Positions 2,853 to 12,242 of a DNA stretch of 64,000 bases are shown piece after piece (within the stretch, counting starts at the first letter, position 1; each line of letters starts with the position of its first letter). Origin of the DNA: Planosporangium thailandense (GTDB taxonomy: Bacteria; Actinomycetota; Actinomycetes; Mycobacteriales; Micromonosporaceae); contig NZ_JAATVY010000003.1 of assembly GCF_011947195.1 (NCBI RefSeq), positions 310,001 through 374,000 on the forward strand. Reading direction: 5' to 3'. Both the position numbers and the translations under genes were made by a program. The notes under the pieces were generated by a model that was not told the origin of the DNA, did not search any database, and was given only the letters and a program-made list of their open reading frames with translations.

Positions 2853-3262
2853 TCGTCCGTGCGTGCGATCGGTCGATGGGTTCCACTTCTTATCCGAATG
2901 GCCGACCTGTCCGGTCTGAGGGGATGGACTCTGGCCGCTGATGGTGGACGATGGGTGGTAGTCGCCTGCGCTCGTCCGGTTCGGTGGATATGAGGTCTTC
3001 GTCATTGCTGATGGGTGGTCGTCCCCGAAGGATCAGCAGGACGACCCGGGCATTTACCACTTTCTGTTCTTCCGCGTCCGCTTCCGAGGAGTGATTTCGC
3101 TGCCTACAGCCGCCGTCGGGTTAACGTGCCTGGTATCAGGAGGCCACGCTGGGCTTTCTTCTTGGCATCGGACGTGGTGGAATCTCGGGGGTCTGGCTCA
3201 AGACGGGTCGGGCGGTGGCGGGTGCCTGATCCTTGTCAGGCGCCGGTTCGGAGGGCGGTGAG
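2853..3262. other. 410-bp intergenic region upstream of the conservon
   Basis: This stretch is less GC-rich than its surroundings and no coding pattern is visible. A short sequence like gatgggtggtagtcg / gatgggtggtcgtcc occurs twice (around 2950 and 3010). The region presumably carries the conservon promoter and ends in the cvnA ribosome-binding site GGAGGG (3250-3255). No terminator hairpin for ada was found. Confidence 0.5.
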
Positions 3263-6200
3263 GTGAGCAAACGGCCAACGGCGGGGACCTCGAAGTTCTC
3301 GCAAGTACGCCTGCCGATGGGCTGGCTGCGTAACGCGCCGATCTGGTCCAAGCTCGGGCTCATCATGATCGTTCCCACCATCGCCACCGTCGTGGTCGGC
3401 ATGCTGGGTCTGGTCGGCAACTACCACCGTGCCAGCGACGCCGACCAGTCGCGCCTGCTGGCCGGCCTCACGGCCGAGAGCGGCGCGTTGGTGCATGAGC
3501 TGCAGAACGAACGAGCAGCCGCGACCCTTCTCCTCGGCAGTCCGAGCAACGACACGAGGGCGGCGTTCGACCGTCAGACGGCCTCCACCGACCAGGCGTC
3601 CAAGCAGTACCGGTTGCGCCGGTCGGCTCTCGCCAACCTGCCCGCCGACTTCCGCGGACAGCTCAACCGCATCGACACTCAGCTGTCCGACCTGGCAAAG
3701 CAGCGCGACCAGATCAGGAGCAGCGGCCAGCAGAACGCGGCCGAGCCCACGACGCTGAGCAACGCCATCTTCCGGTACCAGACGCTCATCGGCGACCTGG
3801 TGTCCATCCGGGGCGCGGCGGCCCAGCTGGCCGGCGACCAGAACCTCTCCAACGACATGCGCGCCTCGGCCGCGCTGTCGCAGAGCAAGGAGTTCCTGGC
3901 GCAGGAGCGCGTGGTCGTGCTCCAGGCGCTCCTGCAGCGCTCGATGCCGGTACAGATGAAGGTGGCCTTCATCGGCACGCTCAAGGGCCAGGAACAGGCT
4001 CTGCGGGAGTTCCAGGCGGTCGCCACCGCGGACCAGCGGGCGCTTTACGACAAGACCGTCACCGGCGCCGACCGGCGGGAAGCGGAGAACTTCCAGAGCA
4101 CGATCTCCAGCCTCACCGGCGACGAGCTGCCCGGCGACATCTTCACCCCGGCGCAGTGGGACCGGGCCATGGTCGGTCAGGCCGACCTGGTCCGCAAGGT
4201 CGAGGTCTCGCTCGACCAGCACGCCGTCAGCGACGCGGCGAGCCTGCGTGACCAGTTGCAGCGGCAGATGGTGCTCCAGGTCGGCCTGCTGCTCGCGCTG
4301 CTCATGGTCTCCATCCTGTTCGCGTGGATCGTGGCCCGGTCGATGGCCCGCGCCCTGCGCGAGCTGCGCCACGGCGCGCTGACCGTCGCGCAGTACGGCC
4401 TGCCGCAGGCGGTCGCCCGGCTGCGCGATCCACAGCTGGCCACGCAGGCCTCCCCACAGCAGTTGGCCGCGCAGATCGCCGAGCCGCTGCCGGTCCGCGG
4501 AAACGACGAGTTCGCCCAGGTGGCCGAGGCGTTCAACGCCGTTCACCTGGAGGCCGTGCGCACCGCCGCCGAGCAGTCGGCGCTGCGGTCGAGCGTCGCG
4601 ACGATGTTCGTCAACCTCGCCCGCCGAAGCCAGATCCTGGTCGACCGGCTCATCGGCCACCTCGACCGGCTGGAGCGCGGCGAGGAGGACCCCGACCGGC
4701 TGTCCGAGCTGTTCCAGCTCGACCACCTGGCCACCCGGATGCGCCGTAACGACGAGAACCTGCTGGTGCTCGCCGGTGCGGACTCCACGCGTATCCAACG
4801 CGAGCCCGCGCCGCTGATGGACGTGCTGCGGGCGTCACAGTCCGAGGTGGAGCACTACACCCGGATCGAGTTCGGCATGATCGACCGTGATGTCGAGATC
4901 GCCTCGCACGCGGTCAACGACATGGTCCATCTGATCGCCGAGCTTCTCGACAACGCCACCGCCTTCTCACCGCCGGACTCGGCCGTGGTCGTGGAGGCGC
5001 GTCGGGTCGGCGACCGGGCCGTCCTCATCATCGAGGACCGGGGCATCGGAATCTCGCCGGATCAGCTGCGAGAGCTCAACGAGCGGCTCGCCAACCCACC
5101 CATGGTGGACGTCGCCGTCTCCCGGATGATGGGCCTCGTCGTGGTCGCGCGGCTGGCCGCCCGGCACGGCGTCAAGGTCGAGCTGCGACCGGCGCGTGAG
5201 CGCGGGACCATCGCCGACCTCACGCTGCCGGCCAGCGTTCTCGTGCCGCGCGCCCTCGCCGGTCGCGGTGGCGTGCCGATCGCCGGTTCGCGCGAGGTCA
5301 CCGGCACCGAACGTCCGATCGCCCGGCCCGACCGGTCACCGTTCGGGGCCCCGTTGGCCCTCGAAAGCGCGGCCTCGACCGGCGGGGCTCAGGTCCCGTC
5401 ACGCGAGCCGACCACGGGCGCCTACCCGCTCGTCGGCGCCGGTCCGTGGGCCGGTGCCGACCAGGGTGCGGCCACGAGCGGGTCGGGCCCGGCGCTCAAC
5501 GGTTCCGCCAGGACCGCGTTCGCCGGCCCTGGCGGCCAGATCAACCCGCGCCCGCTCAACGACGGGTCCGGCGCCGCCGGCTTGTTCGGCGGGTCCCAGC
5601 CGGGCGGGTCCCAGCCGGGCGGGTCCCAGCCGGGCAGTGATTCGCCCGCGGCCTCCGGCGATGTCGTTCCGCCCGCCGTCGCGCCCAACCGTGGGCAGGC
5701 CCCGGCCTGGTCGGACCTCATCGCCACGCCCGAGGACAACGGCACGGTCCACCCGGCCGTCGCGCCCCAGGATCGCGTGCCGCTGCCGCACCGGCGACCG
5801 GCCGAGCCCGCCACCCCGGACGGCGACGGCACGGCCATCCCGCGGCAGCGCCCGTTGCTGGGCGGCGCCGAGGCCGACGACACGGCAGCGGCGCAGCAGC
5901 CTCTCGCGGCTCCGCAGGCGCCCGCCGTTCCGGAGCCTCCCGCGGCTCCGCAAGCTCCCGCCGTTCCGTCGGCCCCCGCCGGGTCGACGGGCGCCCGCCC
6001 GGGCGACAACGGCGGTAACCGGCTGGTCGGCGGCGCGCCCGCCACTCCGCCCGCTTGGCCGCCGGTGCCCAAGCAGCCCGAGCCCGCTGCTCCGGCCCAG
6101 CCGCCGCACGCGCCAGCGGCGTTCTCCGCCGCGCTCGACATGACGGCGGAGATGCCGCGGGTACGCGTCGACTGGGAGGACAGCGGCGGCTCGCCGGCCT

Positions 6201-6865
6201 CCGGCACGGTCGGGGGCGCCGAGCAGCGATTCGCGGACGAAACGATGGAGCTGCCGATCTTCCGCGAGCTCGAGTCGGCCTGGTTCCGCAAGCCCGGCTC
6301 CGCATCCAGGACGCCGGCTCCGACAAACGGGGCGGCCCCGGCCGTGCCGGAGTCCATCGAGCCGGCTGCCGCCGCTCCGTCCGCCGTCGTTCCGTCCGCC
6401 GCCGTTCCGTCCGCCGTCGTTCCGTCCGCCGCCCCCGAGCCGAACGGCTCAGTGGCCGCGGTGGAGCCGGTCGTCGCCGAGGACACCGCACCGCAGGCGG
6501 ATGACGTGGCGGCTCCGGCCGAGACGACCGAGCGTTCGACACCGGTGGAGGCGACGTCCATGTGGCGTACCGCGGCGGACGAAGGATGGAAAGCCGCGTC
6601 AGCGCTCGACCAGCAGCACGACTTCAGCACCACCGCGACGGGGCTGCCCAAGCGCGTACCCATGTCCCAGCTTGTGCCCGGTGGGGTTGAGAAGGGTACT
6701 GTCAGCGCGCACAAGCGCACGCCAGAGGCCGTTCGTGGTCTGTTGTCGGCGTATCACCGGGGCGTTCAACGCGGCAGAGGCAGCAAGCCCGGTGATGCGA
6801 AGACCCCGGAGCACACCACGACCGGACCACAAAGTTCGCAAGGTGGCAAGGAGCAAGAAGCATGA
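3263..6865 (+). CDS. cvnA: CvnA: nitrate/nitrite-sensor-type histidine kinase-like protein
   Basis: A 1200-aa membrane sensor of the conservon type. Residues ~31-52 form a first membrane helix. An extracytoplasmic helical NIT-type domain (~60-330) follows, then a second helix (~336-358) and a HAMP-like linker. The HATPase_c domain (~545-660) shows the N-box [14 protein letters not shown] and the G-box IEDRGIGIS. The last ~500 residues are Pro/Ala-rich with 15-bp repeats. They end in a conserved module ([25 protein letters not shown], then a basic [10 protein letters not shown]). GTG 3263 is chosen because GGAGGG lies 7 nt upstream; a TTG at 3233 lacks this. The gene overlaps cvnB by 4 nt. CvnA is thought to scaffold CvnB-D at the membrane; the ligand is unknown. 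Confidence 0.93.
5591..5635 (+). repeat. Three perfect 15-bp tandem repeats in cvnA
   Basis: The unit gggtcccagccgggc occurs three times head to tail, in frame, encoding GGSQP repeats in the disordered part of CvnA. Confidence 0.95.
6374..6433 (+). repeat. Four 15-bp in-frame repeats in cvnA
   Basis: Four near-identical 15-bp units (gttccgtccgccgtc and variants) encode alternating [10 protein letters not shown] pentapeptides in the Pro/Ala-rich tail of CvnA. Confidence 0.9.
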
Positions 6866-7266
6866 CGACAACGCAGGACCTCAGTTGGTTGCTGACCAAC
6901 TTTGCCGACCGTGTGCCCGGTGTTGCACACGCAGTGGCCGTCTCCGCTGACGGATTGCTCCTCGCCTCGTCGCGCGACCTTCCACGCGACCGGGCCGATC
7001 AGCTCGCCGCCATCGCGTCCGGGCTGGTCAGCCTGACCCAGGGGGCGGCCCGTTGCTTCGAGGGTGGCGCGGTGCTGCAGACCGTGGTGGAGATGGACAA
7101 CGGGTTCCTCTTCCTCATGTCGATCTCCGACGGCTCGTCGTTCGCGGTGCTGGCCGCTCGGGCGTGTGACGTCGGACAGGTGGGCTACGAGATGGCGCTG
7201 CTGGTCGACCGGGTCGGTGACGCGCTGACCCCCGCGCCGCGGCCGACCGCGTCGCTGCTGGGCTGA
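6862..7266 (+). CDS. cvnB: CvnB: roadblock/LC7 domain protein
   Basis: A 134-aa protein that is a single roadblock/LC7 fold ([18 protein letters not shown], then [11 protein letters not shown]). It starts inside the cvnA stop codon (ATGA overlap), so the two are translationally coupled. Roadblock proteins regulate small GTPases. In conservons CvnB pairs with the CvnD GTPase and the CvnA sensor at the membrane. The length is typical. A 68-bp gap separates it from cvnC. Confidence 0.95.
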
Positions 7267-7334
7267 CCGGCCGTTACCGAGATCAGTCGCGCGTGTGGTA
7301 ACCGGCCCGAGGAGTGAGGAGGTGAGCGGCGAAG

Positions 7335-7709
7335 ATGGCCCAACGTGATGAGCCGAGTGGAGCATTGGTGCGGCCGTACGCCGTCACCCGTGGCCGCACC
7401 CGGCCGAGGCTGGAAATTGCGATCGAGGCGCTGATCGAAACCACCGTGCGGGGACGTACCGCCGGTGGGAGAGGCGGCGCGCAAGGGCAGGAGCAGCAGT
7501 ACATCGCCACGTTGTGCGATGGCCGGCTGCAGTCCCTTGCGGAGATCGCCGCGCGGATGCAACTGCCGCTCGGCGTAGCGCGGGTTCTCATCGCGGACAT
7601 GGCGGCGGACGGGTTGGTCGCCGTGTACGAGCCGACCTCGTTCGACGACAACGACGCGGTGGGCACAGAACTGCTGGAAAGGGTGCTGAGTGGACTTCGG
7701 AGGCTCTGA
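7335..7709 (+). CDS. cvnC: CvnC: DUF742 winged-helix-like protein
   Basis: A 124-aa DUF742 protein: an N-terminal VRPYAVTRGRTRP motif, then a winged-helix-like part (LCDGRLQSLAEIAARMQLPLGVARVLIADM) and a short acidic end. DUF742 is the third conserved conservon component. Its role is unclear, although the fold suggests protein or DNA binding. A GAGGAGGTG purine tract lies just upstream of the start. The 3' end overlaps cvnD by 20 bp. Confidence 0.94.
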   Translation: MAQRDEPSGALVRPYAVTRGRTRPRLEIAIEALIETTVRGRTAGGRGGAQGQEQQYIATLCDGRLQSLAEIAARMQLPLGVARVLIADMAADGLVAVYEPTSFDDNDAVGTELLERVLSGLRRL

Positions 7710-8301
7710 CATGACGCCGCACCGTTCGTCGTCCGGGCGGGTCACGTCAGCGAAGATTGTCATCGCCGGTGGCTTCGGCGTGGGTAAGACCACGCTGGTG
7801 GGCTCGGTCTCGGAGATCACACCACTGACCACCGAGGCGATCATGACGTCGGCCGGCGTGGGCGTCGACGACACGCGCCAGGTGCCTGGCAAGACGACGA
7901 CCACCGTTGCGATGGACTTCGGTCGGATCACGATCGACCGGGACCTGATCCTCTACCTGTTCGGCACTCCGGGCCAGACGCGGTTCTGGTTCATGTGGGA
8001 CGAGCTGGTGCGCGGCGCGATCGGCGCGGTCGTCCTCGTGGACACCCGTCGGCTCGCCGACTGTTTCGCCGCCATCGACTTCTTCGAGCACCGTCGGCTG
8101 CCGTACCTGATCGCCATCAACTGTTTCGACGGCGTGCAGTACCACAATGCCGACGACGTGCGCGAGGCGCTGGCGATTTCATCGGATGTGCCGGTGATCT
8201 CCTGTGATGCCCGTACCCGCGAGTCGACGAAGCAGGTGCTGATCTCGCTGGTCGAGTACGTGCTGACCATGCGGCGCACCCGTACGCCCACGCTCGCCTG
8301 A
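7690..8301 (+). CDS. cvnD: CvnD: conservon small GTPase
   Basis: A 203-aa P-loop GTPase. The Walker A motif GGFGVGKTT is followed by the switch segment LFGTPGQTRFWFMWDELV and by VVLVDTRRLADCF, and it carries NCFDG in the place of the usual NKxD specificity motif. The GTG at 7690 gives the VDFG N-terminus usual for the family. ATG 7711 has GGAGG well placed upstream and is an alternative. It is the last gene of the cvnABCD operon and is followed by a strong hairpin. Conservon GTPases act in membrane complexes affecting development and secondary metabolism in Streptomyces; the role here is inferred. Confidence 0.95.
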   Translation: MDFGGSDMTPHRSSSGRVTSAKIVIAGGFGVGKTTLVGSVSEITPLTTEAIMTSAGVGVDDTRQVPGKTTTTVAMDFGRITIDRDLILYLFGTPGQTRFWFMWDELVRGAIGAVVLVDTRRLADCFAAIDFFEHRRLPYLIAINCFDGVQYHNADDVREALAISSDVPVISCDARTRESTKQVLISLVEYVLTMRRTRTPTLA

Positions 8302-8402
8302 CGCCGCTCACGCCTTCGTGACACCGCCGACGGGCGGCCACGAAGACGTGGGCGCACCGGTCAGCACCCGGCGACCGGGGGAGACCACCACACCCGTACG
8401 AC

Positions 8403-8440
8403 AACGCGGCCGCCGTCCGAGTCCGGACAGCGGCCGCGTT
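8403..8440. terminator. Bidirectional terminator hairpin downstream of cvnD
   Basis: An inverted repeat with perfect 11-bp outer arms (aacgcggccgc / gcggccgcgtt), extended by six further pairs with one mismatch, closes a 4-nt loop. It separates cvnD from the convergent gene at 8452-10992 and is followed by a small T-rich stretch. Confidence 0.8.
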
Positions 8441-8451
8441 TCGCTTCGGCC

Positions 8452-10992
8452 TCAGCGTCGGGCGGAGCGGTACTCGTACCCGCGCTCGTCGTCGCTTTGC
8501 TGGTCGCGGCTGAAGTCCCAGCCGCCCGCCGACTCTCGCCCGGGCCGTCCACCCACTCGGTAGCCGCCGACCTCCTGGCCGCGCCGCCAACCCCGGAAAT
8601 ACCCGGAGGTGTGGGCGGCGATCGCTGCGGGGTCGCGGACGACGCGGAGCGGACGCTCGGGCAGTTCGACAGGGGAGCCCGGTACGAGGTTCTGCTGCGG
8701 TACACGGCGCGGCAGGCCCGACGGCGTCTCCGCGCCCACCGTCGGCTCAGCGGCGTGCCTGGCGGCCCGCCAGCCCTCGTCGGACGGGCTGTCGAAGGTG
8801 TGCGGTGTGTCGTCCTCGCCGAAGTAGTCGGTGAACCAGGCGGACCTCGCCTCCGCGAAGATCAACAGGTCGCCGTCGGCTTCGTCCTTGGCCGGCGGCT
8901 CGGACGGCTCGTCGGTCCGGGCGCGCGACCCGGCGCGGCGTGACGCCCGCTCCTCCCGGTCAGGGCCCGCCCCGTTGGGGACGCTGCCAGCGGTGCTGCC
9001 GGCGCCGCTGGCGTCCTCCACGAGCCGGAGCGGACGCGGCTCGAGGCGCGAGTCCTCACCGAGCTCGCTGCGGTACTGCGAGCGCTCCTGCGACAGGGCC
9101 GGGTCGGTCAGCGGGGCCGGTTCGACCAGGCGCAGGGCCGGCGGCTCGGCCGGCAGGTCGATCGACTGCCAGGGCGGCACGACCCGGCCTTCACGCTGCT
9201 CTCCCCGGTCGGCGAGCGGCGGCTCGGCCGCGGGGAGGTCCAGGCTCCGGGTGAAGTCGATCCGGGGCAGTTCGCCGGAGGGCGCGTCAGCGCGGCGCGG
9301 ACGGTCCGAGGGGCGGCGCTCCCGCAGCGGCGGCTCGGTGGGTGCGGCGGCGGACCGAGCGGCGACCGCCGGCTCGTCGAGTACCGGACCGGTCGGCACG
9401 GGCCCGGGCGCCACCGTGAAGTTGGCGGCGGGCTCGGACGGTGCGGCGCGGAACGGCGTGGTGCTTGCCGACCGGGTCGGGAAGGCCGGGGTCAGGCCGG
9501 GCGGCGGCACCGGCGGGACCTGCGGGGACCGGACGATGGTCGGCTCCGGCTGCACCTGCGGCGACCGGACGACGGTCGGCTCCGGCTGCACCTTCGGGGC
9601 CGGGTTGACCGGGGTCGGGACCGTGGCCGGCGGGGGGACCGGGATCGGCGCGGGAGGCGACTGGACGGGAACCGGCGGCGGCGACGCCACGGTCACCGGG
9701 ACCGGCGTGGCAGCCGGGCTCTGCACCGGCGTCGGTGCCTGTGCCGCCGCCGCGACCTGCTCCTCGGCTCGCTTCTCGGCAGCGCGCCGGGCGGCACGGG
9801 TACGGGGCGCGGGCTGGTCGGCGGCCACCGGCTCAGCCGCGGCGGAGCGGTGGACACCGGCCGCTGCCGGCGGTACGGCCGGCGTCGCGGTCGGTGGCGT
9901 GGTCTTCGACGCGACGGCGGGCTGCGGCTGCGGCTGCGCCGGCGTGGGCGACGCGGAGCGGGGGCGCGCCGGGGAGGTGCGCGTACGGCGCCCGGTCGCC
10001 GCGCGGCCCGGCTCGTCGGCCGATGACTGCTGCGTGGTGGCCGCCGGCTCCGCGCCGGCGGTCGCCGCCATCCGGCCACGCGTCTGGATCGGCTGCGCGG
10101 ATCCCGCCGCGCCGGCGGCCGGCATCCGGGCGGACAGGACCGACACGAGGGCGGCCGCGCCAGCGTCACAGGCGCGAACGGCGGCGACGGACTGGCGCAC
10201 GGTCTCGGCCACGGCATTGGTGATCGAGCGGTTCATGCCGGTGCGGCGGGGCGTCTCGGCGATCGCCTCCCGCAGTGCGGACACGGCCTCGGCGAGCGTC
10301 TCCTGGTCGGCGACGCCCGCCTCGGCCAGTTCGGCGATGGCCTGGGCGTCCCGCCCACGCCCGTTGCCGCCGCCGCCCAGGGGGCCCGGCTCGGGCAGGG
10401 CGTCGAGGATGGCCAGCGGGATGGGCTCCGCGGGGTCGGGGAACGCGCGCAGGGCTGCCGGGTACAGCTCGCGGAGCACCTCGCGCAGCGTCGCGGCGGC
10501 GCTCTGCCGGCCGTTGGTGACGGCGGCGTGCGCGGCGAGGACCGGCTTGATCCCGAAAAGGTCCCGGGGAGTGGGCTGGGCGACGGCGGACAGTACGCCC
10601 GCCTGCAGCGCCCGCGCGAGGCCGATGGCCCGCCGCTCGGCCGGGCTGGACTGCATCTCGTCGGCGGCCGCGTCGTTGCTGAAGCGCGCGGCGTAGTCCT
10701 CGGCCGAGTCCTCGTCGGTGTAGGCGAGGTAGCGGCCGGCGGCGGTGAGAAGCCGGGTGACGATGTGCTCGTCGCTGTCGGCGGCGATCGCGACGGACTC
10801 CAGTCCGTTCGAGCGCTCGGCGAGCAGGGCGCCCAGCTCCGAGAAGCCGGGTGCGTCGTCGCTGATGTCACAGATGTCCAGGAGGCGGCCGGCGTCGTCG
10901 ACAACCGCGACGGTGAGCCATGTCTCGGAGCCCGGTGGTGTGGCGTCCTGGTCTGTCGCCGTCAGACCGCAGTACACCCGTACGAGCGCCAC
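8452..10992 (-). CDS. Conservon-adjacent protein: decayed IS110-like N-terminus with a CvnA-like C-terminal tail
   Basis: An 846-aa protein. Residues ~1-250 follow the outline of IS110-family transposases: an RNase H/RuvC-like beta-strand start (VYCGLTATDQ, VAVVDDAGRLLDICD), then SVAIAADSDEHIVTRLLTAAG. Later comes LREVLRELYPAALRAFPDP, like the IS110 mid-region. The acidic residues expected of an active DEDD site are not at the usual places. Residues ~300-700 are a Pro/Ala-rich linker. The end (~715-846) carries SAWF, DEGWRAA, GLPRRVPQQNLVPG and FRGWRRGQ, matching the tail of CvnA in order and spacing. The GTG start has GGAGGAGG upstream. It is probably a domesticated, non-transposing protein; function unknown. 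Confidence 0.7.
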   Translation of the reverse strand: MALVRVYCGLTATDQDATPPGSETWLTVAVVDDAGRLLDICDISDDAPGFSELGALLAERSNGLESVAIAADSDEHIVTRLLTAAGRYLAYTDEDSAEDYAARFSNDAAADEMQSSPAERRAIGLARALQAGVLSAVAQPTPRDLFGIKPVLAAHAAVTNGRQSAAATLREVLRELYPAALRAFPDPAEPIPLAILDALPEPGPLGGGGNGRGRDAQAIAELAEAGVADQETLAEAVSALREAIAETPRRTGMNRSITNAVAETVRQSVAAVRACDAGAAALVSVLSARMPAAGAAGSAQPIQTRGRMAATAGAEPAATTQQSSADEPGRAATGRRTRTSPARPRSASPTPAQPQPQPAVASKTTPPTATPAVPPAAAGVHRSAAAEPVAADQPAPRTRAARRAAEKRAEEQVAAAAQAPTPVQSPAATPVPVTVASPPPVPVQSPPAPIPVPPPATVPTPVNPAPKVQPEPTVVRSPQVQPEPTIVRSPQVPPVPPPGLTPAFPTRSASTTPFRAAPSEPAANFTVAPGPVPTGPVLDEPAVAARSAAAPTEPPLRERRPSDRPRRADAPSGELPRIDFTRSLDLPAAEPPLADRGEQREGRVVPPWQSIDLPAEPPALRLVEPAPLTDPALSQERSQYRSELGEDSRLEPRPLRLVEDASGAGSTAGSVPNGAGPDREERASRRAGSRARTDEPSEPPAKDEADGDLLIFAEARSAWFTDYFGEDDTPHTFDSPSDEGWRAARHAAEPTVGAETPSGLPRRVPQQNLVPGSPVELPERPLRVVRDPAAIAAHTSGYFRGWRRGQEVGGYRVGGRPGRESAGGWDFSRDQQSDDERGYEYRSARR

Positions 10993-11207
10993 CGCGTCGT
11001 CCTCCTCCCGAGACAGCTGTCATGATCTTGCGTTGCGCCCGGCGGGACCCTGTCTCTGGTCCTGCCCGGTGCGGCCGAAGAGGGTGACCTCAACGGCTTT
11101 CACTATTCCCATTCAAAGTCGAACGCGCGACCCGACCGTTCCGTTATGGTCCAACGCGCCCGCGCCTTCTCGTCGTGCTCATCGGGATGATGCTCCCTGG
11201 TCAGTGG

Positions 11208-12242
11208 TCAGTCGCGCCAGTCCACAACCGAAGAGATCTTGCCTATGACCGTGCGCCAGCTGAGCGCCGCGGTGGTTTGCGGGTCAATCTTGCGAAGTCG
11301 GCGACGTGCGAAGAACGCGCCGAACCCGCCCGCTTCGACCGTCCGAAGGCCTTCGTCCAGATCGTCGAGGGGCGAACCCGGCGCCAGCGCCGTCATCACC
11401 GACGGGATACGCAGCGCGTACGCCACGTCACGCGCGAGCTCTCCGGCCTGAATGATCAGCGACGGGTCCCACGCGTCGTGTCCGCCGCGCAGGTTCTCCA
11501 CGACCAGGTCGAGCTCGTACCGGTCCTCCTCGAGCGGGACGATGTCGTCTGGCTCGATGCGCTCACGCAGCTCGTCCCAGGTGTCGAGCTGGGCCAGCTC
11601 GTGGTCGGTGCTCGTGCGCACGTACTCGACGAGCCCCTCCGGGCTGCGGAACAGCAGCAGCCGTCCGCGCTCGGCAAGGAAGACCGGCACATCCTCGGGC
11701 TCGGCCTCCTCCTCGCCCTCCGCCGCTTCCTCGCCCTCGCCGGCGTCCAGCGACTCCTCGTCGTCGCGCCCGGCGTCGGCCTTGTCGGCGGCGCTCGCGT
11801 CGTGCCCGTCGGTCTCGGCTTCCCCGTCGCCCGTGGTGTGCCGGCCGGACTCCTTGCCGGCGGCGAGCGCCTGGGCGGTCAGCTCAGCCTCGTCGATCCC
11901 GCCGACGTCTTCGCCGTCCTCATCGGTCGCCGTCGGCGACACGGAGGCTTCGGGGAAGTCTTCTTCGCGTTCGTCGATCTCCGGGGCGCGTACCTCCGTC
12001 GACAGCCGGTACGCCCGGAGCGTGTACCCGACGCCGGACGGCAGCGCGATCTCGATCGGCTGTACCCGCACGTCTGTCCACAGTGCATCGGTCGCCGCGG
12101 AACGGCTCTCGGCCGTCGCGCCTGTGCTGTCGCTTTCCTCGTCCATCGGGTCGTCCTCGTTGAGAGCGTCGGCGTCCACGTTTTCCTCGGGCGTCTCGGA
12201 CGACTCTTCGGCGCTTTCCGTTCCCGACGGTTGGCGGCTCAC
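11208..12242 (-). CDS. Conserved acidic actinobacterial protein of unknown function
   Basis: A 344-aa protein I cannot assign to a function. The start is taken as GTG 12242 because GGAGG lies 5 nt upstream; the longer open frame beyond it is low-quality sequence. An N-terminal segment (TDVRVQPIEIALPSGVGYTL) and a C-terminal block of ~125 residues (VPVFLAERGRLLLFRSPEGL to the end) look folded. They are joined by a strongly acidic Glu/Asp/Ala linker. It lies downstream of the aldehyde dehydrogenase genes on the same strand, about 130 bp after the truncated one, and may be transcribed alone. Confidence 0.75.
   Translation of the reverse strand: MSRQPSGTESAEESSETPEENVDADALNEDDPMDEESDSTGATAESRSAATDALWTDVRVQPIEIALPSGVGYTLRAYRLSTEVRAPEIDEREEDFPEASVSPTATDEDGEDVGGIDEAELTAQALAAGKESGRHTTGDGEAETDGHDASAADKADAGRDDEESLDAGEGEEAAEGEEEAEPEDVPVFLAERGRLLLFRSPEGLVEYVRTSTDHELAQLDTWDELRERIEPDDIVPLEEDRYELDLVVENLRGGHDAWDPSLIIQAGELARDVAYALRIPSVMTALAPGSPLDDLDEGLRTVEAGGFGAFFARRRLRKIDPQTTAALSWRTVIGKISSVVDWRD

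Follow-up and report, generated by a model that had tools for sequence, protein, structure and literature searches.

An apparently inactivated IS110 recombinase fragment with an LPxR tail of the conservon-kinase type, a candidate component of conservon G-protein systems in Micromonosporaceae

What might a protein that begins like an IS110 transposase be doing beside a conservon? The question is raised by a gene in the window, the stretch of 64,000 nucleotides of Planosporangium thailandense DNA analysed here, whose product we call TL. A preliminary description had taken TL for a domesticated IS110 relative tied to a conservon, and this held; the protein is by all indications also catalytically dead. 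The TL frame has a GTG start, encodes 846 aa and occupies exactly 8452-10992 of the minus strand. It is convergent with the cvnABCD operon (3233-8301) and ends 150 nt from the cvnD stop codon. The neighbourhood is laid out as follows.

3233..6865, plus strand: cvnA, NIT-HAMP-HATPase sensor kinase, with an LPxR tail at 6554-6775
6862..7266, plus strand: cvnB, Roadblock/LC7 protein (Robl_LC7), overlapping the cvnA stop by four bases
7335..7709, plus strand: cvnC, DUF742 protein
7711..8301, plus strand: cvnD, small GTPase (start at 7690 in the ORF list)
8403..8440, no strand: inverted repeat between the convergent cvnD and TL, with 17-bp arms (94%) and a 4-nt loop
8452..10992, minus strand: TL gene, pseudo-IS110 RuvC domain, helical region, Pro/Ala linker and CvnA-type LPxR tail, 846 aa
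11208..12566, minus strand: SatS-like gene, directly upstream of TL on the same strand

TL had been described as facing cvnABCD across a shared terminator. The facing arrangement is as described, and the stretch around the inverted repeat folds strongly (z -6.0), but a consensus scan between cvnD and TL found no T-run terminator on either strand. The label of the SatS-like gene comes from NCBIfam NF050072 at 43.6 bits, far under the cut-off of 700.

Within TL itself we distinguish the parts below; CvnB2 denotes a second Roadblock gene that is paired with TL in some loci.

10573..10992, minus strand: RuvC-like (IS110 DEDD) domain, residues 1-140, catalytic residues lost
10123..10572, minus strand: helical region, residues 141-290, the first part of which aligns with the IS110 stretch containing LREYYPAAL
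8866..10122, minus strand: Pro/Ala-rich linker, fast-evolving
8833..8865, minus strand: tail motif 1, LIFAEARSAWF, common to many CvnA-type proteins
8575..8784, minus strand: tail motif 2 (the LPxR tail), D.GW..A ... GLPxRVP..NLVPG ... GYFRGWRRG, homologous to CvnA residues 1115-1182
8455..8574, minus strand: C-terminal extension, WDFSRD...EYRSARR, found in orthologs without CvnB2 and in L086

The TL gene is real and under purifying selection. Nei-Gojobori counts made with a custom script (six pairs) gave dN/dS values of 0.12-0.28 in the N-domain regions and 0.12-0.25 in the tail when the window was compared with three close relatives. In the same comparison the linker, whose length and Pro/Ala-rich composition had been pointed out before, gave 0.40-0.62. 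As to membrane helices, a hydropathy scan yielded best 19-residue means of 1.18-1.83 across 42 TL. The gene is near-universal in Micromonosporaceae: at E up to 1e-10, and with at most a few candidates scored per genome, TL was matched in 241 of 250 genomes. Six of the nine misses (five g49 genomes and G110) had weaker matches in frames of 494-611 codons, and in G204 the contig ends inside the gene; TL was not found in G135 and G251, both of which are fragmented assemblies. cvnABCD adjoins TL in 37 of the 42 orthologous loci, the window included, so that homologues are not scattered with respect to conservons. In 41 of the 42, TL has the SatS-like gene upstream of it and in the same orientation.

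The IS110-like layout of the N-terminus, recognised earlier by its general arrangement, was recovered by several comparisons. In a tblastn search against plasmids, ten records matched the N-terminal part of TL (29-34% identity, best E 4e-7), and six of these are annotated as IS110 family transposases. A profile of 19 orthologs aligned by hhalign to a Streptomyces IS110 transposase over residues 6-246 with a probability of 98.7 and an E of 1.9e-16. At E up to 1, PF01548 (DEDD_Tnp_IS110) was matched by 12 of the 19 TL members; the ortholog L076 scored 41.7 bits, above the cut-off of 29, and the window TL alone scored 13.8 bits, under it. A structural model reached pLDDT 68 with three IS110 rows in the alignment and failed without them (pLDDT 45.7). 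The best structural matches of this model, built with those three rows, were IS110 recombinases and not an unrelated fold. What remains of the recombinase in TL corresponds to the IS110 RuvC domain and the helical stretch after it. These comparisons indicate that the N-terminus of TL, comprising the RuvC-like domain and the helical region, descends from IS110 recombinases.

The catalytic residues have not survived. In eight of eight IS110 transposases the four DEDD columns read D, E, D, D; across the 42 TL copies they read most often A-D-A-R, in line with the earlier remark that the acidic residues are not where expected. The first catalytic Asp is found in none of the 42, the Glu in two (34 have Asp instead), and the third and fourth residues in three copies each, with all four present in no copy. 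PF02371, the Tnp domain with the catalytic serine, is present in the IS110 protein of L087 and had no match in the window TL or in three other full-length TL scanned. In IS621, as described in the available part of PMC11208158, mutating any of the four DEDD residues or the Tnp serine abolished recombination, and a coiled coil mediates dimerisation. Compared with IS110-family recombinases (PF01548 plus PF02371; IS621, ISCro4), TL thus differs in its lost DEDD set and in the lack of a Tnp-domain match, and also in having a linker and a CvnA tail, a conserved locus and no visible mobile-element ends. A repeat search over 8200-11300 returned nothing similar to IS ends, as had been noted before; apart from the hairpin, the repeat pairs there were 73-94% alike and mostly lay within the GC-rich gene. 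TL is not mobile in the manner of IS110, as the 41 of 42 loci adjoined by the SatS-like gene, the 37 of 42 adjoined by cvnABCD and the single match in most genomes attest. Judged by its residues and domains, TL is an inactivated, domesticated IS110 protein.

The tie to the conservon proved stronger than had been claimed. The preliminary description was accurate for the N-terminus and missed that TL itself carries, at its C-terminus, a CvnA-type tail. By blastp, TL 737-806 aligned with CvnA 1115-1182 (37%, E 1e-7). An HMM built from 57 CvnA-type tails, all from outside Micromonosporaceae, matched 42 of 42 TL with E values of 7e-18 to 2e-24 in a database of 42; of 840 shuffles it matched none. 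Upstream of the LPxR tail, 36 of 42 TL and 40 of 57 CvnA-type ORFs have tail motif 1 in the form IF....SxWF, which none of 2850 shuffles contained. Searching the window genome with the tail profile at E up to 0.1 yielded four matches, namely CvnA, TL, the paralog TL2 (see below) and one weak frame (E 0.0076), which lies directly before a Roadblock gene. A C-terminal extension with an LPxR motif is described for conservon kinases (CvnA homologs) in the part available of Wuichet and Sogaard-Andersen (PMC4316618), where the authors are cautious about its function. By homology, then, the C-terminus of TL is an LPxR tail such as conservon histidine kinases bear. TL is like the CvnA histidine kinases in this extension and its two shared motifs, and cvnA is followed by cvnB as TL is followed by a Roadblock gene in basal lineages, though not in the window. 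TL is unlike them in its IS110-derived N-terminal part and in the absence of kinase domains: a Pfam scan of the whole window protein found no kinase (at E up to 1), NIT or HAMP match.

The Roadblock gene that TL has to itself in basal lineages is CvnB2. It directly follows TL in 15 of the 42 loci, mostly of basal lineages. Judged by the likely start codons, CvnB2 and the TL stop overlap by four bases in eight of these, as cvnB and the cvnA stop do in the window; in six the start lies at -1 to +15 and in one at +118. Robl_LC7 scored above cut-off in all four CvnB2 tested. Thirteen of the 15 were included in a Roadblock tree, one of them under a wrong label, and form one clade of their own there (100/100). 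Five Roadblock genes were found in the window genome, and all of them fall outside that clade. The TL tree puts CvnB2 at its base, with a loss near the crown (fewest changes 2, one possible), and the C-terminal extension of TL arises at about the same branch: all 26 scored orthologs that lack CvnB2 have the extension, as against 1 of the 15 that carry CvnB2, and TL2 lacks it. All 27 loci without CvnB2 face cvnABCD, and all five loci without cvnABCD carry CvnB2. In G109, G110 and the five g49 genomes a CvnD ortholog (79-85%) is encoded elsewhere in the genome, 13 kb away in G110, and in the five of these seven genomes whose TL locus was examined TL keeps CvnB2. With no GTPase gene beside it in five examined loci, CvnB2 is comparable to the orphan actinobacterial MglB/Roadblock proteins of PMC4316618, for which, unlike CvnB2, the available part of that paper reports no link to an LPxR-tailed partner. 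The sequences themselves show that TL has IS110 ancestry and has lost the DEDD set, that its tail is homologous to that of CvnA, that it was coupled to CvnB2 and later lost this coupling in some lineages, that its linkage is conserved and that it is under purifying selection.

The same tail occurs elsewhere, mostly in the company of a kinase. Outside Micromonosporaceae, we found 24 tail places in 14 of 28 genomes, with a Roadblock gene just downstream in 21. Forty further tail places were hand-picked from a class-wide search (four of them inside Micromonosporaceae); a Roadblock gene lay just downstream in 39 and a kinase was matched in 37. The stretch examined held no Roadblock gene in 3 of the 24 and 1 of the 40. 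Because 37 of the 40 had a kinase match and the remaining three loci were cut by contig ends, kinase-free tails appear to be rare outside TL. Of the three exceptions among the 24, one in G022 (L159:2600-5923, G022:C70) is a frame of 1108 codons in which a Pro/Gly linker connects LysR HTH and LysR substrate domains to an LPxR tail; it has no kinase match, and no Roadblock gene was matched within 10 kb of it. This form was seen in one of two genomes examined of that genus and is known from one genome only. The other two (L152, L153; G008, G022), of 146 and 134 codons, consist of the tail and little else and are similar to each other, the 146-codon frame lying near a contig end. Since one other genome has the tail on a LysR regulator, the LPxR tail may be a portable module. 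We entertain tentatively the wider idea that it is a portable docking module that would plug a sensor kinase, a LysR regulator or a dead IS110 recombinase into a Roadblock/Ras-like GTPase switch, TL-CvnB2 being a kinase-free branch whose input domain was recruited from a transposase.

How TL might act can be framed by what the available part of PMC13343842 says of conservons: the CvnB homolog MfpD is a GAP, a CvnC homolog is likely a GEF, and the mode of action of the CvnA kinases, including signal transfer to the GTPase, is largely unexplored. We lean, by a little, towards TL being a kinase-free, CvnA-like adaptor of the conservon G-protein system, whose tail would dock on a Roadblock GAP in the CvnD GTPase switch. 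On this reading, a piece of an IS110 recombinase, made up of the RuvC fold and the helical region that dimerises in IS621, would have lost its catalytic residues and Tnp domain and been joined via the Pro/Ala-rich linker to an LPxR tail like that of the conservon kinases. The most likely docking partner of the tail would be a Roadblock protein, acting as GAP on the CvnD GTPase. In basal lineages this would be TL's own partner CvnB2, and in lineages that lost CvnB2, including the window genome, the likely partner would be CvnB of the adjacent conservon, which for the window genome is a guess. TL, possibly as a dimer, could then provide a second input to the CvnB-CvnD switch or compete with CvnA for CvnB. 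Docking of the tail on Roadblock is the simplest reading because the tail is all that TL retains of CvnA and, in basal lineages, a lone Roadblock gene is its partner; as tail and Roadblock adjoin in CvnA operons anyway, only the TL-CvnB2 pairs are independent evidence for the link. The pseudo-RuvC domain is more likely to bind a protein or a ligand than to carry out RNA-guided chemistry.

Descent from a DNA/RNA-binding recombinase could also mean that TL is a nucleic-acid-binding output of the conservon, with the pseudo-RuvC domain binding DNA or RNA and tail docking letting the G-protein switch control where or when. The LysR-type regulator in G022, with the same tail and no kinase match, would be a precedent, but it is a precedent of one, from a single genome. 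The charge of the protein also speaks against such a role: the RuvC part has a pI of 4.2-4.5 and a net charge of -12 to -15 in six copies from the window's wider clade, and full-length pI is 4.5-6.2 in 16 TL versus 8.8-10.2 in eight IS110 transposases. This acidity is mild counter-evidence, only a shift, as the first 150 residues have a pI of 5.6-9.3 in the eight IS110 transposases and 4.8-8.5 in ten more divergent TL. We consider a nucleic-acid-binding output unlikely.

Still less probable, in our estimate, is that TL works mainly with the upstream SatS-like gene in protein export and that the conservon link is an inherited neighbourhood. The shared strand in 41 of 42 loci and the median gap of 63 nt would fit such a partnership, but it leaves the CvnA tail and the coupled CvnB2 unexplained, the SatS label scores only 43.6 bits against a cut-off of 700, and L083 keeps the TL-CvnB2 pair with no SatS match adjoining. 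As for a still-active RNA-guided recombinase or nuclease of the IS110 type, we give it next to no credence. Sequence descent favours it, but the first Asp is lost in 42 of 42 copies, the full DEDD set occurs in none, PF02371 has no match in four full-length TL, and the locus is conserved with one match in most genomes. The bridge-RNA role considered at the outset found no support. The gap upstream of the TL start codon leaves little room for an RNA in most copies (median 63 nt, range 29-313, n = 41; 215 in the window), and a search of 8200-11300 with the Rfam models gave no match. The RNA-guided enzyme reading is contradicted by the missing catalytic residues and the missing Tnp domain.

The adaptor reading would place TL next to the accessory proteins CvnE and CvnF, as an extra protein beside the four core components. 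In the available part of PMC13343842, CvnE (cytochrome P450-type) and CvnF (GAF) are encoded after the core genes of the operon, whereas TL is convergent to cvnD, carries the LPxR tail and has no GAF or P450 Pfam match. We rate TL, made from a dead IS110 recombinase, as a component of a new type in conservon G-protein systems; in searches of open-access PMC literature, judged by titles and abstract beginnings, no report linking IS110 proteins with conservons came up. TL also offers a widely conserved instance in which part of an IS110 recombinase has become what is probably a signalling protein. It can also be regarded as a natural experiment in which the tail of the kinase was kept, the kinase replaced and a separate Roadblock gene adjoined. 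It points to the LPxR tail as the coupling element, which a short peptide could test.

A few individual loci deserve mention. The second TL paralog of the window genome, TL2 (L065:9594-11024; G000:C22 from 46093), has no Roadblock (CvnB) or conservon match within its 19.5 kb; it is 476 aa long, with a 45% identical N-domain and an LPxR tail. In L148/L154 (G014:C224), two LPxR tails stand in tandem in a single CvnA-type frame. In L051, L052, L054, L056, L061, L068 and L069, a gene lies between TL and cvnD that by eye resembles branched-chain amino-acid-binding lipoproteins.
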